Of a stretch of DNA of 34,977 bases, positions 15,101-34,977 are shown in pieces (positions within the stretch are counted from its first letter, which is position 1; every line of letters starts with the position of its first letter). Made by a program: the position numbers and the translations under genes. The notes under the pieces were generated by a model. The model worked only from the letters and a program-made list of their open reading frames with translations, did not search any database and was not told where the DNA came from. This DNA comes from a virus. Location: positions 1 to 34,977 of the IMG/VR virus record IMGVR_UViG_3300010389_000058; one strand, 5' to 3'.

Positions 15101-15242
15101 CATCAAAAGTTGCTGTTGCAATACCTGTAAATGTTGCAACCCCAATAACATTAGATAAACTCTGGGGATCAGTGACGATCCCCAGTTTTGGTCCGTTGAG
15201 AAATAGGGAAGTTGGAATCCCTCTAAAGTTGATATTCTCCAT
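12108..15242 (-). CDS. Glycine-rich and Ig-like adhesin/structural protein
   Basis: A 1044-aa protein. The N-terminus carries two Ig-like beta domains at about residues 10-140 (IAFKWYYNGSQIL) and 150-245 (IEITKQPTDVTIGETF ... YQWQLDG). A glycine-rich domain (about 245-485) follows, then another Ig-like stretch (about 490-560), a second glycine-rich domain (about 600-850), and a distinct C-terminal domain of about 175 residues rich in aromatics (LLWHVHATYTGDP, WWILPPGVPDF). The glycine-rich parts resemble those of the 673-aa protein at the left end, so the virion probably displays two glycine-rich adhesins. The gene begins the chain MENINFRGIPTSLF and its start overlaps nothing upstream except coupling from the next gene: the 1969-aa gene upstream ends at the same base (TAATG). 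Receptor binding is inferred. Confidence 0.78.
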   Translation of the reverse strand: MENINFRGIPTSLFLNGPKLGIVTDPQSLSNVIGVATFTGIATATFDDANFSLDGGSIAFKWYYNGSQILDTSEDSNSNASIVGFSSATGTGSTITINGLKAGDTGKEVYFTADYIPSAYSQPAGSAVTAGTARSTGNAYNEPIQSGIATITLSPTIEITKQPTDVTIGETFEASFSVAAQKTPGGGAVSSYQWQLDGNDLSDGTSTTTITDLTTGQIQVTDNLGGSATIDFSQVSSYDNFVTYRTYTLVANADITTKIFATGAGGGASDSRSVAGGNGGEVNGEFTFVKDQVYKLIIGEGGDPGTISRQSFTQGGQHSGGYGGGGNGGGYTGLFLGPTVTHSQAILIAGAGGGGSNDPARGGDGGGLTGGNAGNAPSRGGEGGTQSAGGAGGGSASPGRALGGGPGSAGGGGGYYGGGGGQPYPSCCADGAGGGGSSYFNPALITNGSTTAGAGGAGGNNRDGRTVIRTAYNGRPEAGAPTYESVGGDGSFRIELSSIKKTVTTTVSGATTPNLKITSDGTGSGVIRCKVTATDVQVSPVYSKSVSYYVIAKRNLIKIEQYDYANATATLSENNLSDGGLSIDYSTHPGNAVCLYAAEQDVEVEIDMYGGKGIGFDEPGGTGEDYTQYNGYEGGEGGYSKINFTMKKNEEYILTGLYSSVNTPFLYRKGTLIACVGEGGWGGHYGRGGFGGGIRTSGENGPSGGGLGGVRYLDGQLPSANGTFGSRSSLNAVTPDTNATGNNAGKTIPCPRGDYWRNQGKAPCDDLGTIKFRTPDGTEISNTASISRGYKSGYNIIQTGGTRGTSDGGNGGNGATGGEGDTSQGGGGGSGYTDGSVTVTTTQLGGSTGPARINIKLFTNNYYIDSDGRILIMSWSPLQPSGAIPYRALQKTTGIVNPTDFGNCIDDARWQRFLDLARDGTQNYRLTATGWNNPQYLTNATDFNIHKMLNANVVQLRDSLTAYVQESANSNRYSLAWDEDSGSSASGGDYSLLWHVHATYTGDPNYGFGYYGHSQNSFFTETKYYIKSANWWILPPGVPDFPKP

Positions 15243-18200
15243 TATGCGAAGTTCTGACCTCCTACGACACCATACAGACCAGCGGATGTGACGTTCTTTC
15301 CATCAAATGTCTTGAATGAGTAGATATCCGATCTACTTGCCGTTGTGGTGACTCCTGGTAGGACTCCTCCACCTGGCCAATAAACTGGGATGGATGTTCC
15401 ACCACTGTTCTTAAATGTATCTATACCGACAGAGTGACCACCAGTTGAATCCTGATCAATTCTTAATGTAAATGAAGTGGATCCTTCAGGTGGATTGGTG
15501 AGAATAAATGCATTGATAGCACCTGTTGCGGTACAGATAAAGGATTGTGCAGAAGAAAGATCAACAGTAACTTCATTTGCAACTGCTGTCAGATATGCAA
15601 CATTCTCAGAGTAGGTCTTGAGTTTCGTGTGACCTTGAACATCAAGTCTTGCAGTAGGAATTGTTGAACCAATACCAACTGAACCAAATCCAACATTTGT
15701 TGTAATGATTGTTCCAGCAACACCAACCTTCAATGTTGTTGAAGTAACAACACCTGCGGTGATTTGACCAGAAGAGTTTTGAATGTTGTAGTTACCAACA
15801 ATCGTGCTAAATCCAGCAACAGTCAGATCATTTACGGTAGCAATACCAGCAAACTTTGCCTGCGAGTAGACGTGCATTGTGGTTCCGGAAGAACCAACAG
15901 CACCAACTGTCAAATCAACATTTGAAAGTGGTCTTGTTGTTCCGATACCAACATTAAGAACAGCAACTGGATAGATACCAGTTCCAATGCCTGGATCGAC
16001 TGCATCCCATCTACTATCATTAGCAAGGTTAGTTAATCCAGAACCATCTCCAGTAAATGCAGTTGCAACAATAGAACCACTAAACTTAGATTCACCAACA
16101 ACATGAAGTTTAAATCCATTTGCAGTAGTTCCGATACCAACTCCATCACCATCAACACAGAACTCACTGGTTCCTGATCCAACCTTCAACTTGCAGTTAG
16201 ATGCGGTTGTTGTTGCAATACCTACAGAATCAAAGAGAGCATCAGCAGTGGTTGTTGCAATACTGACAGTACCGAAACGTCTCCAACCATTTTCTACTGT
16301 ATAAACCCAACCAACATATCCACCTTGACTTGGGTTTGCATTATAAACAACATCACCGGGGTTGCCTGCGAGAGCAGGAGTTGCAATACCAACAGTATAT
16401 TTTCTTGAGACAGTTGCATCACCTTGTAAGAACAGGTTGTTTGCTTCAAGTCCCTTAGCAGAGTTAACAGTTAACTTGTTGTTAACAATAACTGGTCCGT
16501 TGAACTTAGAAACAACTTTGTTATCAGGACCACCCTCTACCTTGATTGATCTTGAGAATACACCTTCAATAGGTTCGACAACATTAAGGTTTGGAAGTTC
16601 TGCAATATCTTCACCTTCAACAGTTTGAACTGGAGTATCAAAGATCTCTTCTCTACCAGTAATCGTACTGAGCCTCTTATTACCAGAATAAGAGATACCC
16701 TTGTCATTCATTCCAGTATAGAAGTTAATACCACCTTCTCTCTTAGTTGATTGTGCTAAGAGTTCTTCATTAGTGCTGATAGCACGATCTTGCTTATCTG
16801 GGAATGCGGTAGAATAGTTACCAGGACCAAATCCAACATATTCAAAAGTATGACCAGAGGCACGAATGATAGAGTGTCTTCTAAGTTCAACTGGATCTAC
16901 CTTAACCTTTCTAATAACAGAGTTGATTGTATGAGAAGTTGCTTTAGATCCAAGAATACCTCTGAAAACATACACTGGGTTTGATCCAGTGGTGGTTGTC
17001 TTAACTCTCATGAGTTCACCACCAACCATCAAATAATCACCAATGTTGATGTCTAAGTTACCAATATCTTGAATGTTGATTTGATCTGTAGACGCATTTG
17101 CAATAGAACTGGAAATTGTTGTCGTGATTCCAGCATAAGTTGTGACCATTCTACCATCAAGGTTTTCATCATCATTTGTGATGTTACCATCATTTGATGT
17201 AAATCCTTCAGGAAGAGCATAAATGGTTCCAGTTGCTGTAGGTGCTTGTGTTCCAACTCCAAGATTTGCTTCAAATGAAGTTAGTGAATTGATCTTAGTG
17301 ACGACAAATGAACCATTGTATTGGTTCTGATTTGCACCACTGATTCTTACCTTTTTGTCAACTTCAAGACCATGATTGTTATATGTGGTAATTGTAGCAA
17401 CACCTGCCACCGTATAAGTGAAAGTATTAACTCTGATTGTTTCACCAGTCAAGTATAAGTATGCATCAGCAGTCAGAGTAACACCAATACCTGTCGTGGT
17501 ATTAACAATTCCACCACTGCTGAGTGAGGTTGCCGCAGCAACAGTAATCGTAGTTGCAGATCCAACGGTAACATCAGTAATTCTATAGAGCTGGTTATAT
17601 CCTTGATAACTATCAGATTTAACTCCAACAACTCTGATAACATCACCAATGTTGTTATAAATGTTGGTAACTTGGACAACAGCTTGTGAGAATGATCCAG
17701 TTGTTGTAACTCCAACAACATTCATGGTGTTGCCAATACCATATGCACTACCACCATCCATGACCTTAACGTCAGTGATAGTACCACTTCCATCAACAGT
17801 CAGTTTTGCAGTTGCATGTTTACCTGTAGTAGAAGATCCGATAGAGATCAGTTTAGCATTGTAAATATCTCCAGCAGATCCAGATCCATATCCAGCACCA
17901 CCATCAACAATAGAGAGTTGAGTGATTCTGTTCAGTCCGTGATCATATTCGGTGTGAATAGTGTGTGCAGCACCTGTGACAGAGAAGATATCAGTGATTC
18001 CCACACCAATATTCTTGTCATCATTCATCATATCAAGAGTTTCTCTTGTGATGCTGCTTTTTGGATCATCAGTTTCAACTAATCCAATCAAGTTTGATGC
18101 TGCAAAAGATTTTGCTGCCTTTGGATCAGAAACAACAGTGTCTCTGGATGTTTGTGGGAAAAGATCCTTAACAGATTGAGAGAACTTCTCAGCACTGAAC

Positions 18201-21151
18201 GGAGAAACAGTTGGACTATTAGATGCGTTAAGAACACTTATATAATAGATACCATCCTGTTCTCCAGTAATATACTTTTGTGCCTCAGAAAGTCTGTAAA
18301 CGTAGTATGTGTCAGAATATCTCTTACGTCTGAAGTATGGTAATGAGGTTGTTCTCGTATCAATATCGCTAGTAAAGGTTCCAGGATCTGTTGCAAGACC
18401 AACACTAAACTGCTTTGCACTTGAAATTCCAGTGACAGAGAATTGACCATTGAAACCTGAGTTTCCAATACCATTTGTGTTATTGGAACTTGTAATGTTG
18501 TTGATCTCAACTGTGCTTCCGATTTTGAGATTGTGTGGAAGTTCAGTATCAATGTTTCCTGAAGTTCCGTCCCAACTTGCTCCAGAAATAAATCTGAAGT
18601 TTCTTTGTTGGTTTACATTTGTGAGAGAACCCGATCCGAAATAGGTTTGAATTTCACCATCAGTTGATGCAATGGAAGTATTTGATTCTTGAATAATAAA
18701 TCCTTCCGTTGGTGGTCTTCCAACAGCACCAGAGTTTGCAGGAATGACATATCTCATTCTATAAGTTCTATCAATACCAGATCTTGCGTCAGATCTTCTC
18801 TTGATAAAGGTTCTTGGAGTAGCAGTACCAAGACTTGTTGTGCCAAGACTTACAATTGTTGGATAAATTGAGTTCTCGGTTGCAGCAAGAGCAACTTTAA
18901 TATACCACTGAGAGTTTGTAGAGTCATACTGAATTGGGTGACCAATGTCTCCAGAATTTTTATCAGATACTCTACTTACAACTTTGAGTGCTCCACCCCT
19001 TTCATTAATTTCAATTGGGGTTCCATTAATAGCATCATTAAGAGTTTTTGCAAGTTTGATATCAGAATTTCCAATACCAGTTCCTGTTGTGATAGCAAAA
19101 GCAACAACATTTGGAGACAAACCATCTGGAAGTTGTCCAGTGTCACTTATTACACGAACCGATTCACCAGTAAGGAAGTTGTGTGCTCTGGTAAAGCTAA
19201 TAACATTTGCTGTTCCACTAATACTATAAGTACCAATACTATTGATTCCAGCAATACTTCTCTTAACGTCTGATACCTTTTCAGCACTATAAATTGGATT
19301 ATTTGTATTGTCTGGCATGACAATACGAGCATTATATTCAGTTGCAGTTCCAGATTGAGAAATAAACACTCTTAAAGTATCATTTTCTCTTGCACCGACT
19401 CGATATCCTTCAAGAACGTTTTCTGGTGGGGAGTCAATGTTGGTTTGTCCATAAAGATAAAGGTTTCCTGTTGAACCAACACCAGCAACTACATCGGTTT
19501 TGGTAACATCAATGGATTCAAATTCAATAGATGTTTCAGTGAGAGAAACTTCTTTTGGAGGAATAATATGAGTGATATATCCTTGATTATCCTGAGAGAA
19601 TGCATCTGTTCTAAATCCAACCGATGTCAGTGCATTTGCACCAAAGTTGGAGTTAGAGTTGGTCAGTGAAATATCACCACCATTCTCAGTTACAAAGTGC
19701 TCAGCAAATCCAATCGCAAAGACAGAAACTGCCTGAATGAATGAATTGTTTGAAACTTTGATATGGAAGTTACGATATTCTGGTTTAAATCTTGCTTTTG
19801 AATTGGTGCTAATATTTTCATTTCCAGCAACTGTGTTGTCATCATAGTTTCCAGTTGGTGGAGAATCCTCATTGTACTTTACAAATGCCTTATCATCTTT
19901 CTGCAATCCAATACCAGTGAACTGGGCAACAACCATAGATTTAAATCCAGTTACCTTTGATCCATCGGCATGAATACCGTTCATACCATAAACAGATCTC
20001 AAAGAGATATTGAAGACATATGGTGATGCTGAAGTTACGGTATCTGAAGAGAGTGCTAAAGTTGAACCAGATACTGTTGGTAATGCATTTGAAGGAGCAT
20101 TTTGAACTGTATATTTGATTTGAGTATCACTTACTTTCTCAGATACAACAAATTTTCCACTATATCCGGTTGCAGTGATACCATCAATACGGAATGGGGT
20201 ATCAACATCAAGACCAGCAACAGCAGAATCTGTAGTTACAGTAATGGTTGTAGTTGCAGTAACACCATCACCTGCTTTGATGCTGGAAATACCAACGGTC
20301 AATCCGGTTGAACCAACAATACGATATTCATCAATCTTAGTTTGAATATCAAGACCAGTTGATGGATAATCTGGTTCAATAGGACGACCTGAAGATTGTC
20401 CATAAACAAGTCCAACCTTCTCATAGTACATATCCAAATCAGTTCTATCAGTAGAATAGTTGGATATAAATGCATCATTGATGCTTACATTATTTGCACC
20501 ATCAGCATACTCAAAACAAGTGAGTTTGTGGTGTGAGAAGTTAGGGACGAATGTATTTGAGGTATAATCTTTATAAACAACCCCATTTGGATCTGCATCA
20601 AAAAGACTAAATTGCCAAATGTAGCAACCACCAGTCAATCTGAAAATTGCGGACCTCTCAATATTATTGTTTTCTGGGTCAGGAACATACTTAGGACGAA
20701 TCTTGGTCTTTCTGAGGTCAAGACCAACGATTGAAGTTCCTCTTGGAAGAATTACTCCACCATGAATACTGTTTAACTTGTAAAGTTCGTTCGTTGGAGA
20801 GTCTAAACTGAGATCTGAAGTCAAGTCAAGAGGTGGCAGATCATCAGTAGTAGATCCATTTCTTAAACGGAAATTATTACTTCCATCTGGTATAAATCCT
20901 GGTCTGTTATCAACTACATGGTCACCAGGATAGAGAAGAATGGTTGTCTTTCCAAATCTATCATTATTCAATCCTCTTTGGTATGAAAACCTTGCGGATT
21001 CAATCAAAGCACGCTGAATCGTTTTGAAGGGACGAGTCAGTGAATTGCCCTGGTTTTCAATACTATCCGTAGCATCTAAACTATTCGGATCGACATAAAG
21101 AATAGTACCACGCGTTGATTTCAGGAAATTATCTAATCTGGAGAGACCCAT
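15242..21151 (-). CDS. Giant tail fibre/baseplate-associated structural protein
   Basis: A 1969-aa protein, the largest in the window. The N-terminus (MGLSRLDNFLKSTRGTILYVDPNS ..., about 1-260) has a pectin-lyase-like repeat look, with RPFKTIQRALIES and PRGTSIVGLDLRKTKI. The middle carries repeated beta modules of the form VRISG-x-YNGxFVVTxI, seen near residues 320, 885, 1170 and 1270. A region near 1400-1480 (LRRHSIIRASGHTFEYVGFG ... REGGINFYTGMNDKGISYSG) appears as a discrete domain. The C-terminus (VTVDLSSAQSFICTATGAI ...) is the cap module also seen in the 422-aa protein. Proteins with this start are known virion proteins of T4-like cyanophages; the exact position in the tail is not clear to me. 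A late promoter (GATAAATA) lies 29 bases upstream, just after the island terminator. Confidence 0.82.
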   Translation of the reverse strand: MGLSRLDNFLKSTRGTILYVDPNSLDATDSIENQGNSLTRPFKTIQRALIESARFSYQRGLNNDRFGKTTILLYPGDHVVDNRPGFIPDGSNNFRLRNGSTTDDLPPLDLTSDLSLDSPTNELYKLNSIHGGVILPRGTSIVGLDLRKTKIRPKYVPDPENNNIERSAIFRLTGGCYIWQFSLFDADPNGVVYKDYTSNTFVPNFSHHKLTCFEYADGANNVSINDAFISNYSTDRTDLDMYYEKVGLVYGQSSGRPIEPDYPSTGLDIQTKIDEYRIVGSTGLTVGISSIKAGDGVTATTTITVTTDSAVAGLDVDTPFRIDGITATGYSGKFVVSEKVSDTQIKYTVQNAPSNALPTVSGSTLALSSDTVTSASPYVFNISLRSVYGMNGIHADGSKVTGFKSMVVAQFTGIGLQKDDKAFVKYNEDSPPTGNYDDNTVAGNENISTNSKARFKPEYRNFHIKVSNNSFIQAVSVFAIGFAEHFVTENGGDISLTNSNSNFGANALTSVGFRTDAFSQDNQGYITHIIPPKEVSLTETSIEFESIDVTKTDVVAGVGSTGNLYLYGQTNIDSPPENVLEGYRVGARENDTLRVFISQSGTATEYNARIVMPDNTNNPIYSAEKVSDVKRSIAGINSIGTYSISGTANVISFTRAHNFLTGESVRVISDTGQLPDGLSPNVVAFAITTGTGIGNSDIKLAKTLNDAINGTPIEINERGGALKVVSRVSDKNSGDIGHPIQYDSTNSQWYIKVALAATENSIYPTIVSLGTTSLGTATPRTFIKRRSDARSGIDRTYRMRYVIPANSGAVGRPPTEGFIIQESNTSIASTDGEIQTYFGSGSLTNVNQQRNFRFISGASWDGTSGNIDTELPHNLKIGSTVEINNITSSNNTNGIGNSGFNGQFSVTGISSAKQFSVGLATDPGTFTSDIDTRTTSLPYFRRKRYSDTYYVYRLSEAQKYITGEQDGIYYISVLNASNSPTVSPFSAEKFSQSVKDLFPQTSRDTVVSDPKAAKSFAASNLIGLVETDDPKSSITRETLDMMNDDKNIGVGITDIFSVTGAAHTIHTEYDHGLNRITQLSIVDGGAGYGSGSAGDIYNAKLISIGSSTTGKHATAKLTVDGSGTITDVKVMDGGSAYGIGNTMNVVGVTTTGSFSQAVVQVTNIYNNIGDVIRVVGVKSDSYQGYNQLYRITDVTVGSATTITVAAATSLSSGGIVNTTTGIGVTLTADAYLYLTGETIRVNTFTYTVAGVATITTYNNHGLEVDKKVRISGANQNQYNGSFVVTKINSLTSFEANLGVGTQAPTATGTIYALPEGFTSNDGNITNDDENLDGRMVTTYAGITTTISSSIANASTDQINIQDIGNLDINIGDYLMVGGELMRVKTTTTGSNPVYVFRGILGSKATSHTINSVIRKVKVDPVELRRHSIIRASGHTFEYVGFGPGNYSTAFPDKQDRAISTNEELLAQSTKREGGINFYTGMNDKGISYSGNKRLSTITGREEIFDTPVQTVEGEDIAELPNLNVVEPIEGVFSRSIKVEGGPDNKVVSKFNGPVIVNNKLTVNSAKGLEANNLFLQGDATVSRKYTVGIATPALAGNPGDVVYNANPSQGGYVGWVYTVENGWRRFGTVSIATTTADALFDSVGIATTTASNCKLKVGSGTSEFCVDGDGVGIGTTANGFKLHVVGESKFSGSIVATAFTGDGSGLTNLANDSRWDAVDPGIGTGIYPVAVLNVGIGTTRPLSNVDLTVGAVGSSGTTMHVYSQAKFAGIATVNDLTVAGFSTIVGNYNIQNSSGQITAGVVTSTTLKVGVAGTIITTNVGFGSVGIGSTIPTARLDVQGHTKLKTYSENVAYLTAVANEVTVDLSSAQSFICTATGAINAFILTNPPEGSTSFTLRIDQDSTGGHSVGIDTFKNSGGTSIPVYWPGGGVLPGVTTTASRSDIYSFKTFDGKNVTSAGLYGVVGGQNFA

Positions 21152-21180: not shown

Positions 21181-21188
21181 TATTTATC
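21181..21188 (-). promoter_or_regulatory. T4-type late promoter (GATAAATA)
   Basis: GATAAATA on the minus strand lies 29 bases before the ATG at 21151 and 3 bases after the terminator of the early-type island. Terminator plus late promoter separate the two transcription programmes. Confidence 0.6.
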
Positions 21189-21191
21189 CAT

Positions 21192-21214
21192 AAAAAAACC
21201 TCCCAGAGGGAGGT
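21192..21214 (-). terminator. Rho-independent terminator of the Mom/tRNA island
   Basis: On the minus strand ACCTCCC, a 3-base loop and GGGAGGT form a 7-bp hairpin followed by a run of T. It lies 38 bases after the stop of the Mom-like gene and ends the transcript that starts at the sigma70 promoter near 23070. Confidence 0.88.
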
Positions 21215-21252
21215 CAAGATGCACATTGTGCCACTATTCACACGGAAGGAAT

Positions 21253-21867
21253 TTATATTATACCATACTTCTCTTGATTCCACAAGATTTCCAATTTTTT
21301 ATCAAAAACCATCAAATACCTATGTTTTCGAGTTCTATCTCTCCATTCACCTTCAGCACCCTTGACACTTCCCCGTGAATGTTTGGTGCCATCAGAGTAG
21401 TAAAAATCCTTTTTAGAATCTGTCAACCCATAATACTTGAAATTACAAGCACGGTATATAATTCCACTATGGTGAGCAGAGTCAGCATAGCTAAGAATAG
21501 CACGAACATCCGCATCTTTACGGAACCTCTTGATACAACGACTCACGAACCAAGACGTTATGTTATATTCTTCTTTCTGAATTTCTGGATCAACACAAAG
21601 TCTTGAAAGTTCAAATAAACCTTCTTGCTGATTGCGTTCTAACCCGAATGCTCCTCTGGCAATTTCTGGAACAGGGAGCCCAGTAAAAATGCAAGCAGCA
21701 AGGCACTTGCCAATCCTAAGAGGACATTCCCACTCTGTACGTTTGAAAAGTCCATAATTGTACCCAGATTTAAAATCTTTAGATTCGTCCTTTAAGTAAT
21801 GATGAGTATAAAGAAGATCTTTAATGTCATCTTTACTAACTCTATCTATGTAAAAATTTGATTTCAC
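21253..21867 (-). CDS. Mom-like (GNAT-fold) DNA modification protein
   Basis: A 204-aa protein that resembles the phage Mu Mom family, a GNAT-related fold that converts adenine in DNA to a methylcarbamoyl form and so protects phage DNA from restriction. Supporting features are YNYGLFKR near the start, the core FELSRLCVDPEI followed by a helix (SWFVSRCIKRF), ILSYADSAHHSGIIYRACNF with the conserved Tyr/Asp/His region and YYGLT, and the terminal KHRYLMVFD. The start appears to be GTG at 21867-21865; no ATG lies in frame nearby and the previous gene stops 13 bases upstream. It is the last gene of the non-structural island, before a terminator. Family assignment is from motifs by eye; the substrate is not established, and related cyanophage proteins may act on other groups. 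Confidence 0.72.
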   Translation of the reverse strand: MKSNFYIDRVSKDDIKDLLYTHHYLKDESKDFKSGYNYGLFKRTEWECPLRIGKCLAACIFTGLPVPEIARGAFGLERNQQEGLFELSRLCVDPEIQKEEYNITSWFVSRCIKRFRKDADVRAILSYADSAHHSGIIYRACNFKYYGLTDSKKDFYYSDGTKHSRGSVKGAEGEWRDRTRKHRYLMVFDKKLEILWNQEKYGII

Positions 21868-21880
21868 TGGGTATTTTTAC

Positions 21881-22060
21881 TCACTTTTGTTTTGATTCTA
21901 AGATATATTCTACTGTATTGGCAACATCATTCATTGCAACACGAAGATCTGGTTGAGAACCAGAATGCTGCTCTCCTTTATAGTCTTTATTATACTCTTC
22001 AGTATACAAAGTCCATCTCCACTGACCCATACTTTTAGAATACCATAAGTTAATTTTCAT
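21881..22060 (-). CDS. Small conserved-type hypothetical protein (59 aa)
   Basis: An ATG at 22060 opens a 59-aa frame ending in TGA at 21881: MKINLWYSKSMGQWRWTLYT ... SGSQPDLRVAMNDVANTVEYIL. The Trp/Tyr-rich first half and the acidic helical second half look like a folded small protein. Frame, start and length are plausible: 17 bases follow the tRNA-Thr and 13 bases precede the Mom-like gene. Similar short W-rich proteins occur in cyanophage early regions. Function unknown; there is no strong RBS. Confidence 0.72.
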   Translation of the reverse strand: MKINLWYSKSMGQWRWTLYTEEYNKDYKGEQHSGSQPDLRVAMNDVANTVEYILESKQK

Positions 22061-22077
22061 AGTTTTTTACTTATAAG

Positions 22078-22148
22078 AGCCCCTACCCAGAATCGAACTG
22101 AGCTCTGGTGCTTACAAAACACCTGCATCACCACAATGCTTTAGAGGC
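22078..22148 (-). tRNA. tRNA-Thr(UGU)
   Basis: Reading the minus strand, a 7-bp acceptor stem (GCCTCTA/TAGGGGC) encloses a 4-bp D stem (GCAT/ATGC), an anticodon stem GGTGT/GCACC with loop TTTGTAA (anticodon TGT, reading ACA), and a T arm CTCAG-TTCGATT-CTGGG. Length is 71 nt with no encoded CCA. All arms close, with a few G-U pairs. It lies between a small gene and an HNH remnant in the island. Confidence 0.9.
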
Positions 22149-22206
22149 TTGAATGATGGATTTGATGGCAGTTTGCACAAAGAACTTCGCACTTTTCTGC
22201 TTCCTT
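22141..22206 (-). pseudogene. HNH endonuclease remnant (C-terminal fragment)
   Basis: The minus strand encodes KEAEKCEVLCANCHQIHHSS then Leu and a stop, bounded upstream by an in-frame stop and lacking a start codon. KCEVLCANCHxxxH is the characteristic C-terminal Zn-binding/HNH end of small phage HNH endonucleases. Only about 21 codons remain, and the fragment runs into the 5' end of tRNA-Thr. I infer a decayed homing endonuclease beside a tRNA. Confidence 0.55.
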
Positions 22207-22223
22207 TTATATAAGTTACAAGT

Positions 22224-22493
22224 TTAATCAATAGGTAATAGTTCTGGATTTTCCAGTTCTACTTCAAACATCAAAGGGTGGCATAATTCATCTATTAGAT
22301 AAAAAGATGTTCTGTACAACTCTTCAGGTTCCCAAGATTTGCAACTATTTGCCATTTCAACAATTTCCATATCATGCATAGCAAAGTCTGGAAGTTCGTC
22401 AAATGTAAAAGGAACATTTTGTATGAAATACATCAATACAACTTGTTTCTTTTTATTATACCAACAATATTTTGTGTCTATTCGGTATTTCAT
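22224..22493 (-). CDS. Hypothetical protein (89 aa)
   Basis: An 89-aa acidic protein (MKYRIDTKYCWYNKKKQVVL ... FTFDELPDFAMHDMEIVEMA ... LENPELLPID). It has no signal peptide or membrane segment. It follows tRNA-Leu by about 35 bases, with a strong hairpin between them (22526-22505). It is part of the non-structural island. I do not recognise the family. Composition and codon use look normal for the phage, and no longer frame competes on either strand. Confidence 0.65.
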   Translation of the reverse strand: MKYRIDTKYCWYNKKKQVVLMYFIQNVPFTFDELPDFAMHDMEIVEMANSCKSWEPEELYRTSFYLIDELCHPLMFEVELENPELLPID

Positions 22494-22504
22494 GAGAATT
22501 ACCG

Positions 22505-22526
22505 TACCCTAAGCATATTTAGGGTA
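22505..22526 (-). other. 8-bp hairpin between tRNA-Leu and the 89-aa gene
   Basis: TACCCTAA and TTAGGGTA pair perfectly around a 6-base loop, starting 2 bases after the tRNA-Leu discriminator base. There is no following U-tract, so it is not a terminator. It may guide 3' processing of the tRNA or protect the downstream mRNA end. Confidence 0.55.
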
Positions 22527-22527
22527 A

Positions 22528-22611
22528 TAGGACGAGGGGGACTTGAACCCCCACGGGAATACTCCCAACAGATTTTAAGTCTGGTGCGTCTACCACTTCC
22601 GCCACCGTCCC
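22528..22611 (-). tRNA. tRNA-Leu(UAA)
   Basis: On the minus strand an 84-nt class II tRNA: acceptor GGGACGG/TCGTCCT, T8-G9, D arm beginning GCGGAAGTGGTAGACGC, anticodon stem CCAGA/TCTGT region with TAA in the loop, a long variable arm (TGGGAGTATTCCCG) and T arm GGGGG-TTCAAGT-CCCCC, discriminator A. No CCA is encoded. The long variable arm and anticodon fix it as Leu reading UUA. Confidence 0.95.
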
Positions 22612-22620
22612 ATAAAAAAC

Positions 22621-22776
22621 CTATTCAGGTTTATAACTTGGAGAATGAAAACGACAATATTCATTGAATGTTATTTTCATTTCTTTCCAAGTGAGTCCAC
22701 AGTTTGCTGCTGCTTTGGGAACATTCCATTTTGCTGTAAACAGCATTTCCATTGATTGTCTTGTTTCAGGACGCAT
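22621..22776 (-). CDS. Small hypothetical protein (51 aa)
   Basis: A 51-aa frame from ATG at 22776 to TAG at 22621: MRPETRQSMEMLFTAKWNVP, then KAAANCGLTWKEMKITFNEY and CRFHSPSYKPE. It has the look of a helix-turn-helix fragment (KAAANCGLTWKEMKITF), in which a short helix, a turn with Gly and a second helix follow each other, so DNA binding is possible but unproven. It lies between the 60-aa gene and tRNA-Leu, 9 bases from the tRNA. A longer frame (to 22898) covers the same bases out of phase and looks non-coding. There is no clear RBS. Confidence 0.65.
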   Translation of the reverse strand: MRPETRQSMEMLFTAKWNVPKAAANCGLTWKEMKITFNEYCRFHSPSYKPE

Positions 22777-22851
22777 TTGAAAAAAGTAATAGAGTGAAAT
22801 TTTTGCCGGGAATTTTTCCCCCCAAAAATGGAACTAAAGGTCGATTTTCCC

Positions 22852-23034
22852 TCACAGAGGGTCAGCGTACGCAAGTGTATCTTCGTCAAGTCTATCACGG
22901 CAGAGTTCCAACACGGTCATGAACTGCTCTACGGTTTCACAGTCTACGACACGTTCTTCACCTTCATTAGAATAAAGAAAGAACTTACGGGACACGGGAT
23001 CCACGACACATCGGGTCAGGTACTCGTCTTGCAT
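22852..23034 (-). CDS. Small conserved-type hypothetical protein (60 aa)
   Basis: A 60-aa acidic protein (MQDEYLTRCVVDPVSRKFFL ... VVDCETVEQFMTVLELCRDR ... DTLAYADPL). The sequence is well formed, with a beta hairpin followed by a helix, and I believe similar short proteins are widespread in T4-like cyanophages. It is the first gene after the perfect sigma70 promoter, whose -10 ends 24 bases before the ATG, leaving a leader of roughly 18 bases. Function unknown. The gene should be among the first expressed of this island. Confidence 0.78.
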   Translation of the reverse strand: MQDEYLTRCVVDPVSRKFFLYSNEGEERVVDCETVEQFMTVLELCRDRLDEDTLAYADPL

Positions 23035-23057
23035 GGGGTTTGTTTGATTACCTGCTT

Positions 23058-23086
23058 ATTATAGGACGGTCAGGGCACGGTGTCAA
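23058..23086 (-). promoter_or_regulatory. Perfect sigma70 consensus promoter (TTGACA-17-TATAAT)
   Basis: On the minus strand TTGACA (23086-23081), a 17-base spacer and TATAAT (23063-23058) match the bacterial housekeeping consensus at every position. The -35 box overlaps the TGA stop of the upstream tail gene. It points at the 60-aa gene and the tRNA/Mom island. Unlike the NATAAATA sites elsewhere, it should be read by unmodified host RNA polymerase, implying early transcription. Confidence 0.9.
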
Positions 23087-23742
23087 GAGAGTGTGGCAAC
23101 AAAGTTTCCGTCCATGTTTGCGATCCAAATAGAAGCAGCTCCAGTTGGTCCGCCCCCACTAGGGACCACCAAAGTGAATGAATCTGTGTCAAGAGATCCT
23201 GTATTCGCAAATCTTACGGTAGAATGTCCAGTTGTTGTAGTGCTTGCTTGAAGACTGACTGTAACTTGATCGGTTCCTGCATTTTTTACATATATGTTGA
23301 CATATCTACCACTTGTCAAATTAGAAACTTTAAATGCTAAGGTTTGGGATATAAGTTCATTAAAAGTTGTAGAGTGATGATGCATCTGTATCGTAGAAGC
23401 ATCTATAATTTGAGTTGGTGATGCATTAGAAACAGCTTGAACTCCTCCAACAATATAACTTGATGATGTTGTGAAACCAGTAACAGATAAGTTATCAACA
23501 ACTTGCAAACTATTATTGACTTCTACTGCTCTGTTCGTCGTAATACCAACTGCAGAATAATCTGGTAAGTGGTTTATACCATCTTCGATATGCCAAAGTC
23601 CGACTTCAGCGGAAACTGGGACAACACCATGATTATATTTCTCTTGAAGGAGAAGATCATAAGTCGTTTGTCCAACAGCAACGCTCACACCGTTTCTGGT
23701 GGAGGTGATTCCCGTATCGATAACGTAATAATACTGTGCCAT
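23083..23742 (-). CDS. Small tail/virion structural protein
   Basis: A 219-aa protein opening MAQYYYVIDTGITSTRNGVS, then VAVGQTTYDLLLQEKYNHGV, fibre-like repeats (VDNLSVTGFTTSSSY) and a beta-sandwich-like C-terminal half (about 120-219: IQMHHHSTTFNELISQTLAF ... RYVNIYVKNAG ... SIWIANMDGNFVATLS). A strong RBS (AGGAG 8 bases before ATG) supports the start; the stop codon lies within the -35 box of the next promoter. It closes the structural run that starts at 30374. Precise role unknown; a fibre tip or small adhesin is possible. Confidence 0.75.
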   Translation of the reverse strand: MAQYYYVIDTGITSTRNGVSVAVGQTTYDLLLQEKYNHGVVPVSAEVGLWHIEDGINHLPDYSAVGITTNRAVEVNNSLQVVDNLSVTGFTTSSSYIVGGVQAVSNASPTQIIDASTIQMHHHSTTFNELISQTLAFKVSNLTSGRYVNIYVKNAGTDQVTVSLQASTTTTGHSTVRFANTGSLDTDSFTLVVPSGGGPTGAASIWIANMDGNFVATLS

Positions 23743-30403: not shown

Positions 30404-30411
30404 TATTTATT
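30404..30411 (-). promoter_or_regulatory. T4-type late promoter (AATAAATA)
   Basis: AATAAATA on the minus strand lies 29 bases upstream of the 1501-aa gene. It overlaps the stop codon of the gp5-like gene (TAATAAATA). Confidence 0.6.
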
Positions 30412-32029
30412 ATATTCCAGAGAATGGTGCGATTGGTCCAACATTTCTACCAACATAAGGAAGTCCTGCTTCAACTCTTTTGTCTTCTGGATTATATTCA
30501 AGAGGAGGTTCTGCTTTGGTTGGTTCAACGTAGGGTTCAGATGGAGGTGCTGGTGCTGCAGGTTGCGTTTCTACACCATCAGCAACTGATTTCTCACTCG
30601 GAGTTGCTGCTGGTGGTGTAGAATCTCCACCAGAACAGAAAGTATATATGTCAGAAACTGCAACGTTTGGTGTCAACTCACATCCAAAAACATTCAGTTT
30701 AATATTTGTAAAAGAAAGTGCTGAAGTCAAACTACCACTAATATCTGGAATCAGATTTTGAATATCACTTATATACCCTTCAATACCAGCAAGCATCTCA
30801 TTCATATCCTCCAGATATGCATTCAAATTATCTATTAAGTTATTGTTTGCACTATCAATCTCTCCCTGTGAAGATGCAATTACCTGAGAGGTAATAGATT
30901 CGGCATAACACATAGGAACGATAGGATTTGTTGGTGATCCTACTATTGGATCACCATTTTCAATTGCATCTAAAACATCTTGCTCTAATTGGTCTGGATT
31001 GATGGCATCATTAAGAGCACCTTCAATCTTTTCACAAAGACCCTCCATCATTTTATTATATAAACACAAAATAAGTTCTGTAAGAACTTGTTTCATATCA
31101 GCAAACTGATATCTTTGACTGGATGGAAGTGCTGCAACAACAGCATTCAATCCCTTGTTCAATTCTTTCATCACATACTCCATGATCTTATCAAAGATAA
31201 TCTTCATGTATTTGGCAATCTCACATGCTATATCATTAATAATTCTTTGAATCTCATCAACTACGTTTGAAACAGCATCAATATAACTTTGCAGAGCCTG
31301 AAGATATGAATCAATCTTTTTAATAAGATTATCAATAGCAGTTTGAATTCCTTTCAGTGCAGACTGAACAAGTTGATCTGGATCTGGTTTTAATAATACA
31401 ACCTTTTCTTCACACTTTGCTTGTCTCTTTGTATCAGCAGCAGTAGTTTGGTGAACACCATCTGCATTCTCATTAGTTGCACCAGACTGTCCTGGTGGTG
31501 GTTGAGTGACACCTAAGTCACTATCTGGTGGAGTTTCTCTTGCAGATCCCTCCTTCTCTTTTGTCCCATCAGAGTATCCACTCTTCGCAATACTTCCTGG
31601 TTGAGTATCTGTAACAGAATTATCAACAGTACTGTTCTTTTGAGATAATGTTGTTTGGGAATTGTTGCCAAGTATTCCCATGATAACAGGAACTTGTCTT
31701 TCTTGACCATCAAGAAAGAATCCAAACACCATATTTCCTTGACGGATTTGTGGAGTTTGTTTTGCACCTGCCTGTCCACCACCAGCAGTCACAGGATACA
31801 TTACCTGTGCCCAGGGCAATTGATCAGATGGGATTGTATCCTCACCTTGATCATGTAGACCAATGATTCTTACTTTATATCTTCTGCCCCATCCAGGAAT
31901 ACTATTTTTATCGTCATACTTTCCTGAGTGAATATTATCTCTCCACGTTGAGTCGTCAGGGATCTGACCAACCCACCAAGGAAAAGATGATCCAAGGAAA
32001 CCAGGATTAAATAGTGTTCCTCCTTCCAT
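30410..32029 (-). CDS. 5: Baseplate central hub protein, gp5-like OB-fold without lysozyme
   Basis: A 539-aa protein. Residues about 15-125 match the gp5 OB-fold of T4: WWVGQIPDDSTWRDN, WGRRYKVRIIGLHDQGEDTI, LPWAQVMYPVTAG, QGNMVFGFFLDGQERQVPVI MGILG, in the same order as T4 gp5 (WFVG, GRVRVRVVGLHP, EKLPWMSVIQPIT). There is no lysozyme domain after it. Instead comes an acidic linker, a long helical/coiled-coil segment (about 205-440, including DNLIKKIDSYLQALQSYIDA and KYMKIIFDKIMEYVMKELNK), and a Pro-rich tail ending NVGPIAPFSGI. It acts at the hub of the contractile tail. It lies 6 bases after cp12 and near the hub-like gene, consistent with a baseplate operon. Confidence 0.85.
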   Translation of the reverse strand: MEGGTLFNPGFLGSSFPWWVGQIPDDSTWRDNIHSGKYDDKNSIPGWGRRYKVRIIGLHDQGEDTIPSDQLPWAQVMYPVTAGGGQAGAKQTPQIRQGNMVFGFFLDGQERQVPVIMGILGNNSQTTLSQKNSTVDNSVTDTQPGSIAKSGYSDGTKEKEGSARETPPDSDLGVTQPPPGQSGATNENADGVHQTTAADTKRQAKCEEKVVLLKPDPDQLVQSALKGIQTAIDNLIKKIDSYLQALQSYIDAVSNVVDEIQRIINDIACEIAKYMKIIFDKIMEYVMKELNKGLNAVVAALPSSQRYQFADMKQVLTELILCLYNKMMEGLCEKIEGALNDAINPDQLEQDVLDAIENGDPIVGSPTNPIVPMCYAESITSQVIASSQGEIDSANNNLIDNLNAYLEDMNEMLAGIEGYISDIQNLIPDISGSLTSALSFTNIKLNVFGCELTPNVAVSDIYTFCSGGDSTPPAATPSEKSVADGVETQPAAPAPPSEPYVEPTKAEPPLEYNPEDKRVEAGLPYVGRNVGPIAPFSGI

Positions 32030-33616: not shown

Positions 33617-34977
33617 TTACCCTTGATAATCCAAGAACTCAAAGGAACCATCATATCCAGATCCACCACCCATTACCATCATACCACCACCAGATGACTG
33701 AGGAGGTTGTTGCTCTGGAGAATCCTGAACAATAATTGTTTGTTGTGCTCCCTGTTCATAAGAGGCATATTGTTGAAGAACTTTCGCAACACCTGCCCTA
33801 TTTTTTGCTTGGTTTAATGCCATCATCAATCCTGGTGCCTCTTGTCTAAGAGCAGCAGTGGAGTCAGCGTCAGTAACGAATTCAGTTCCACCAAGGTTGG
33901 CAAACAATCCTTTACCAATAAATCCACCCTTATCTTTCACCTCAATGTGCATATGAGTTGGGTGTCCATGTCCACCAGGACCTTGCTTTTGACCAGGAGC
34001 ATACATACCACCCCAACTATCATGAATCAACATCTTGATAGCAGGGTTGTCTTGAAGTGATGTTAGAACAGAACGATATCTTGATTTAGAATCTTCAAGA
34101 GATCCTCTGTGATCAGTAACATCAAGTGCTCTACCTTCATAATGTCCTCTACCTTTATGAACATTAGAAACATATCCTTGTCCTGGTGTATATTTTCCTC
34201 CAGATGTGTTTTTGGTGAAATCTGGGTGCTCAGCAACAGCAAATCCTTTACTTGCAAGGTCCTTGCCAATGTTGACAATGTTTGAACCACCTACCTTAAT
34301 ATCTGCTCCAGCATTAGAAGATAGAAGAGAAGTTGGTACAGTTCCTGGTTTCACAAATGATGCAATGTCCTCCTCTCTTCCTCTAACATTAGCATACTCG
34401 TTCATCAATCTTTGCAGAGACTGTGCATAAACTGGATCTGTCGCGTATCCCTCAGACTTTAACATTAATGCAGCAGCAAATGCATCGGAAGCATTATTTA
34501 CTCCACGATATCCTTTGTAATCTTTATACCACTGATTAACAAGATGATTGATTGCATCTTGTGGAGTAGCAAAGTTTTTAAATCTAGCATCAACATAAAC
34601 ACTTTGACCATTAACAACTTCTCTGGTATTAGAAACTGTAGCATCTTCACTTCCTGTTGCTTTAATTCCAAAGAAATTATTGTCAGCAGCTAAAGCAGTG
34701 CCCCAAGCCGATTCCAATGCAAATTGTGCTGCTACCAGTTCAGGATATTTGGCACCTGCTTTTTGTGCCATTGCATATATTGCTTTCCACTTTTCAACAT
34801 TACTTCCAGTGAGATTTGTAGACCCACCACCAGCTCCAACTGGAGCACCAGAACCACCACCAGGAGGAGGTTCAGAAGCAGAAACTGGTTGTTTGATATT
34901 CATTTCATAGTTTTTATTAATAGCAGTTGCCATGTCTTTTCTAAAAGTATCAGTTACCCATCTACTAACATCAACAC
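33617..34977 (-). CDS. Dual peptidoglycan hydrolase: glucosaminidase plus LAS zinc peptidase (5' end beyond window)
   Basis: From the first visible ATG (34933) it is 438 aa, but the frame stays open to the window edge (14 extra codons, no stop) and there is no good RBS before that ATG, so the gene may be the C-terminal part of a longer protein such as a tape-measure-like chain. Residues about 45-185 (counting from that ATG) form a FlgJ-type glucosaminidase: AAQFALESAWG with the probable catalytic Glu74, NNFFGIKA, YATDPVYAQSL. Residues about 225-335 form an LAS/M15-type zinc peptidase: HYEGRALD (His264-x6-Asp271) and HMH (His327-x-His329). The tail (GGFIGKGLFANLGGTEFVTD) resembles C-termini of phage tail hydrolases. 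It likely opens the cell wall during injection, replacing the lysozyme that the gp5-like protein lacks. Confidence 0.82.
   Translation of the reverse strand, partial: VDVSRWVTDTFRKDMATAINKNYEMNIKQPVSASEPPPGGGSGAPVGAGGGSTNLTGSNVEKWKAIYAMAQKAGAKYPELVAAQFALESAWGTALAADNNFFGIKATGSEDATVSNTREVVNGQSVYVDARFKNFATPQDAINHLVNQWYKDYKGYRGVNNASDAFAAALMLKSEGYATDPVYAQSLQRLMNEYANVRGREEDIASFVKPGTVPTSLLSSNAGADIKVGGSNIVNIGKDLASKGFAVAEHPDFTKNTSGGKYTPGQGYVSNVHKGRGHYEGRALDVTDHRGSLEDSKSRYRSVLTSLQDNPAIKMLIHDSWGGMYAPGQKQGPGGHGHPTHMHIEVKDKGGFIGKGLFANLGGTEFVTDADSTAALRQEAPGLMMALNQAKNRAGVAKVLQQYASYEQGAQQTIIVQDSPEQQPPQSSGGGMMVMGGGSGYDGSFEFLDYQG

Follow-up and report, generated by a model that had tools for sequence, protein, structure and literature searches.

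A group of small genes lying inside the tail-gene cluster of the virus record IMGVR_UViG_3300010389_000058 is probably a conserved, regulated cargo slot near gp5 of a T4-like cyanomyovirus, with its genes under early and partly also late control. The record, referred to as the window, was analysed over its whole length of 34,977 bases; its genes are on the minus strand, and its proteins and DNA match T4-like cyanophages. Read along this strand, gp5 is followed by a 1501-residue virion gene, four smaller tail genes, the slot as it occurs here (the island), and a 1969-residue tail fibre gene. The island holds four small genes, two tRNA genes, the remnant of an HNH endonuclease gene and a Mom-like gene, all of them found as listed in an earlier note made from the letters of the window (the sequence-only reading). 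The signals around and within the island, their conservation, the identities of the genes and the purifying selection acting on them are observed directly. The signals are:

23058–23086, minus strand: sigma70-type promoter, TTGACA-17-TATAAT, 12 of 12 positions, predicted start near 23051
22516–22522, minus strand: internal late-type motif CTAAATA, 29 nucleotides (nt) before the gene for an 89-residue protein
21192–21215, minus strand: intrinsic terminator, 8-bp stem and T run
21181–21187, minus strand: tail-fibre late promoter motif ATAAATA
30404–30410, minus strand: tail-operon late promoter motif ATAAATA, the operon running into the island

The promoter at the upstream border is the only site in the window that matches the sigma70 consensus at 12 of 12 positions, where first-order shuffles lead to an expectation of about 0.03 such sites per 35 kb on both strands. 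The TGA stop codon of the preceding 219-residue tail gene (23085–23083) lies inside its -35 box, and in both the promoter and this overlap the sequence-only reading was borne out. For comparison, we gathered loci with DUF7294, the family of the first gene in the slot, from IMG/VR and from phage isolates, and sought the promoter 40–90 nt upstream of the start codon. It lies about 52 nt before the gene, and at least 11 of the 12 positions are matched in 84 of 99 non-redundant loci (58 with 12 and 26 with 11), compared to none of 492 control windows, where the maximum is 10 matches. When 91 non-redundant loci are aligned, the hexamer positions are mostly 88–100% conserved, with one -10 position at 76%, and the bases upstream of the -35 box carry less than 0.3 bit, except for the base adjoining the box. 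The predicted transcript start, GGTAATCAA..., is likewise conserved. The promoter is kept although the spacer and the upstream gene diverge between relatives, and 42 of 85 scorable relatives show the same overlap of the -35 box with the stop codon of the gene before it; in Syn9, Syn19, S-SM2 and S-SCSM1 the matching promoter likewise begins within the tail-gene stop codon. The frequency of near-perfect matches relative to the controls, together with the nearly uninformative flanks, supports the view that the promoter is under selection and stays with the locus. Cyanomyoviruses lack homologues of alt, modA/B, motA and asiA, and early genes of S-PM2 and Syn9 have sigma70-like motifs ahead of them (PMC2984593). 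The other perfect sigma70 sites of S-SM2 are found among small genes and in hli, tRNA and oxygenase clusters. This phage also carries, directly after a tail-fibre gene and inside the tail-fibre cluster, a second run of genes of the 2-oxoglutarate (2OG) oxygenase type with a perfect sigma70 promoter of its own (NC_015279, 36829–39415, locus L181).

The sequence-only reading overlooked a second late-type motif, CTAAATA, at 22522–22516. A motif of the TAAATA type is present before the 89-residue gene in 55 of 60 non-redundant relatives, compared to 6% in shuffles; elsewhere in the slot, late-type motifs are found in none of 49 cases before mom, in 1 of 77 before the gene for a 51-residue protein and in 1 of 93 before DUF7294. 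The motif accompanies the 89-residue gene even when an HNH gene is inserted between the motif and tRNA-Leu. The window has two copies of CTAAATA, both on the minus strand and each 26–29 nt from the gene that follows. Of ATAAATA there are nine copies on the minus strand, six of which precede a gene by 27–40 nt, and a single copy on the plus strand. In several relatives CTAAATA is the only box before the fibre gene. The internal copy thus has the layout of a late promoter of the T4 type, which is a TATAAATA-like box located 25–40 nt before a start codon and enriched at gene starts. As this conserved motif precedes the 89-residue gene, it suggests that the distal half of the slot (the 89-residue gene, tRNA-Thr, the 59-residue phrog_2818 gene and mom) is read both early and late.

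At the downstream border, the island ends in the hairpin-T terminator already proposed for it, with the layout GACCTCCC-TCT-GGGAGGTT-TTTTT (stem 21215–21197, T run on to about 21192). Late promoters stand on both sides, as had also been noted, with ATAAATA at 30410 for the upstream tail operon and at 21187, after the terminator, for the fibre gene. A terminator precedes the fibre gene in 50 of 69 non-redundant relatives, compared to one of the 137 control windows taken from within the fibre gene, and a late-type motif precedes it in all 69. A terminator within 120 nt before the sigma70 promoter is found at 1 of 90 loci, and the minus strand of the window between 25.9 and 23.1 kb has weak stems only. 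Owing to this rarity of upstream terminators, late read-through from the tail operon into the island is likely. The frame is therefore one-sided, with a terminator frequent downstream and almost absent upstream, and would bar early transcripts from the fibre gene and let late transcripts into the island.

In the explanation that we favour, host RNA polymerase with sigma70 would start at the promoter overlapping the tail-gene stop soon after infection, with no phage factor needed. The early transcript would span DUF7294, the 51-residue gene, tRNA-Leu, the 89-residue gene, tRNA-Thr, the 59-residue gene and mom, and would halt at the terminator, so that the 6-kb tail fibre gene would not be expressed before its own late promoter comes into use. 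Once late transcription has set in, the slot would be transcribed a second time, from the internal CTAAATA promoter and by read-through out of the tail operon. Given these two late sources and the lack of a terminator on the tail-operon side, the distal genes, including mom, would be made early and late, in a “middle”-like fashion. The cargo would thereby be timed differently from the neighbouring tail genes. Mom would modify adenines of the progeny DNA against restriction and the tRNAs would support phage translation; tRNAs and a DNA modifier may plausibly serve throughout infection. The timing, the use of the sigma factor, the chemistry of Mom and the benefit to the phage are what we infer from sequence.

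Several observations weigh against this explanation. P-SSM2 and P-TIM68, both phages of Prochlorococcus, and one single-cell virus are among the loci that have DUF7294 without the promoter, and in 19 of the 69 relatives no terminator was found before the fibre gene. The TAAATA motif is short, and a small hairpin over it is possible in 19 of 54 relatives; the motif could instead serve the 3′ processing of the tRNA. Moreover, the word “early”, when used of the slot, reflects the type of its promoter.

The content of the slot differs widely between phages. P-SSM2 and P-TIM68 have DUF7294 alone, and other relatives add tRNAs, a Phd-like antitoxin, endonuclease V, CpeT, 2OG oxygenases, and HNH and GIY-YIG-like endonucleases (GIY-YIG and some of the other cargo names being our own reading of the sequences). 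The order of gp5, tail genes and island is the same in S-SM2, Bellamy, SynMITS9220M01, S-SCSM1 and S-CAM9. A comparison of the locus across relatives, as the sequence-only reading had proposed, thus finds content that varies at the same place and is not universally fixed. Single genes inside the slot come and go, and the borders are common to very distant phages. Guanine plus cytosine (GC) content is 38.2% in the island and 38.4% and 39.0% in the flanks, and we rejected a recent horizontal insertion judged by base composition on the grounds of this equality. Nothing in these comparisons suggests a recent insertion of the island as a unit.

These findings bear on the proposal of the sequence-only reading that the island is a self-contained module expressed only early, insulated on both sides and inserted as a unit between the tail genes. 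What stands of this proposal is the conserved and perfect sigma70 promoter at the head, with the terminator and late promoter at the end, and a content differing between relatives would also fit it. A purely early timing and independent expression fit poorly with an upstream terminator in 1 of 90 relatives and a conserved late-type motif inside in 55 of 60, and insertion as a module fits poorly with a GC content equal to that of the flanks and with shared borders between which genes vary one by one. We thus regard the proposal as a whole as unlikely. It is quite improbable that the island is mainly late and part of the tail operon, with the sigma70 site little used or a constitutive start giving a low level of tRNAs and DUF7294. 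Read-through from the late tail operon would meet no obstacle, and the two Prochlorococcus phages that have DUF7294 without a sigma70 promoter would be in keeping with such an arrangement; however, the conservation of the hexamers among nearly random neighbours would be hard to explain without use, and a separate downstream terminator and late promoter would be unneeded. Finally, it is very improbable that the signals are mainly anchors for recombination, allowing tail tips and cargo to be exchanged through homologous borders in the manner of the promoter early stem-loop (PeSL) elements whose shuffling in T4-type phages is cited in PMC4503421, since even though the conserved promoter and leader stand beside unrelated tail-gene ends, and a conserved block of terminator and late promoter stands before the fibre gene, the homology is short and interrupted, and in its account of the S-PM2 ORFanage the same paper judges PeSLs an unlikely cause; such a role would be compatible with the dual-timed slot that we favour.

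The genes and other stretches in and around the island are:

30410–32029, minus strand: gp5, baseplate hub/lysozyme (phrog_33098)
23083–23742, minus strand: 219-residue tail/fibre-type gene, the upstream border, downstream of gp5 and further tail genes; matches neither PHROG nor Pfam
22852–23034, minus strand: 60-residue DUF7294 gene, first in the slot (phrog_662; PF23966, 78.9 bits), median ratio of non-synonymous to synonymous substitution rates (dN/dS) 0.10
22778–22851, minus strand: non-coding stretch between the 60- and 51-residue genes; an element GGGGGGAAAAATTCCCGGCAAAAATTT...TTTTTT recurs here and was spotted by eye in many relatives
22621–22776, minus strand: 51-residue gene (phrog_1308/1920, E 1.3e-26), median dN/dS 0.16
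22527–22612, minus strand: tRNA-Leu(TAA) (ARAGORN; Rfam 50.8 bits), in 98 of 106 islands
22224–22493, minus strand: 89-residue gene (phrog_4134, E 8e-34), median dN/dS 0.17
22141–22206, minus strand: HNH endonuclease remnant (final 21 codons) that overlaps the 5′ end of tRNA-Thr
22077–22148, minus strand: tRNA-Thr(TGT) (ARAGORN; Rfam 47.3 bits), in 70 of 106 islands
21881–22060, minus strand: 59-residue gene (phrog_2818, E 5e-23), median dN/dS 0.19
21253–21867, minus strand: Mom-family DNA-modification gene, 204 residues, GTG start (PF25680)
15242–21151, minus strand: 1969-residue tail fibre gene, the downstream border (phrog_529, 1461 bits)

All four small open reading frames of the island (60, 51, 89 and 59 residues) thus belong to PHROG families. 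For DUF7294, the best PDB neighbours of the confident AlphaFold model (mean predicted local distance difference test score, pLDDT, of 87) are periplasmic domains of FtsH, from several independent entries; their best E is only 0.06, and no export signal is obvious in the protein. For these two reasons we did not adopt an FtsH-type function from the fold and treat it as a mere lead, one that might point to the protease of photosystem II repair. The element 3′ of this gene recurs as TTTTTGG...AAAAATTCCCGGCAAAAATTT...TATTACTTTTTT, and could be an attenuator or a processing site. The HNH remnant corresponds to the end of a 118-residue open reading frame that is intact at the same place in two relatives (loci L045 and L064). 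Its frame ends in the first bases of tRNA-Thr, and this tRNA gene may have been the edge at which the endonuclease inserted. These two relatives also have a sigma70-like match some 735 nt ahead of mom, within the intact HNH gene; it may have arisen by chance or serve the HNH gene as its own promoter. At the edge of the window, within the tail cluster, a gene at 33617–34933 has matches to endolysin-like domains.

The last gene of the slot in this virus is a putative anti-restriction DNA modifier. Its product matches the Pfam family Mom with 73.7 bits (cut-off 27.1), and the gene is intact and under strong purifying selection (median dN/dS 0.077). Searching by sequence alone gives no PDB neighbour, and Mom of phage Mu is reached by fold search only, where it is the best match of the predicted structure (PDB ID: 8bv8; E 2.5e-6, template modelling score 0.62), with a GNAT fold; confidence in the model is moderate (mean pLDDT 62.9), and residues 128–204 are poorly modelled. 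Ser124 of the Mu protein, which is changed to Ala in 8bv8, an entry describing the protein as inactive, aligns with Ser105, and this residue is invariant in 42 sequences. The Mom clade comprises 189 matching stretches in IMG/VR, and the closest relative among the phage records searched, at 51.5%, is from a Roseobacter phage (CRP-212; MZ892988, 10348–10932, locus L089), where the matching stretch carries no Mom annotation and overlaps an open reading frame labelled as a MazG-type pyrophosphohydrolase. When a mom locus reaches the fibre gene, mom is usually within 250 nt of the fibre match (66 of 76 loci), and 7 of the 49 loci found with the DUF7294 query that reach the fibre gene carry mom. Our literature search found nothing specific on Mom in cyanophages.

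We put forward, tentatively, a wider possibility: that a widespread uncultured cyanophage lineage might protect its DNA with Mom, expressed under host sigma70 as infection begins and a second time late, in a dual-timed slot whose conserved border signals would time any cargo. The regulated slot itself makes a known hot-spot into a defined genetic device, with fixed signals at fixed places and variable cargo between them, giving a simple, testable rule for the timing of accessory gene expression in the cyanophage slot. As the Mom clade, with its 189 stretches in IMG/VR, has no close relative among the phage records searched, the DNA of environmental cyanophages may often carry modified adenines that have gone unsuspected; this would matter for how cyanobacteria restrict their phages and for sequencing methods able to detect modified bases.

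The location itself is already known. Sullivan et al. 2010 (PMC3037559) name “near gp5 with tRNAs” as one of four hot-spots in T4-like cyanophages, and the island is at this site: it is close to gp5 within the tail cluster, carries tRNA genes and varies in content between phages. As in that account, it is placed after gp5 and small tail genes and consists mostly of uncharacterized small genes. In the part of that account dealing with the site, the hot-spot is named by its gene content, with no description there of a conserved promoter, an internal late motif, a terminator frame or mom; the present analysis adds to it the conserved frame, the late motif inside the slot and mom as part of the cargo.

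The PeSL cassettes of T4-type phages, as cited in PMC4503421, are similar in that regulatory signals frame exchangeable genes. However, a PeSL would be one compact intergenic unit of early promoter and stem-loop, whereas the slot has its promoter at one border and its terminator and late promoter at the opposite one. S-PM2, Syn9 and RB49 are phages for whose middle genes a combination of early and late promoters has been proposed (PMC2984593); the slot resembles them in that its distal genes have both a sigma70 promoter of the early type and a late-type motif upstream. In the slot, however, two small genes and a tRNA gene lie between the two signals, and the cargo is of another kind, being tRNAs and a DNA modifier instead of T4 middle-gene homologues.

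The likeness to Mom of phage Mu, as judged from sequence and model, lies in the shared Pfam family (PF25680), the GNAT fold and the aligned serine. Phage Mu expresses mom late, under the control of protein C, and the gene is toxic when expressed too soon or too strongly (PMC4461284). In the window, by contrast, mom is at the end of a predicted sigma70 transcript with a late-type motif additionally upstream, and no com gene was seen. Early and late production of Mom, if true, would be the opposite of what is known for Mu. P-HM2 is stated to degrade host DNA (PMC5082946), and the part of the RNA-seq account in that paper used here sorts genes into early, middle and late clusters and has no per-gene data for the slot. 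A lytic phage that, like P-HM2, breaks down the DNA of its host may not need the restraint that Mu places on the timing of mom.

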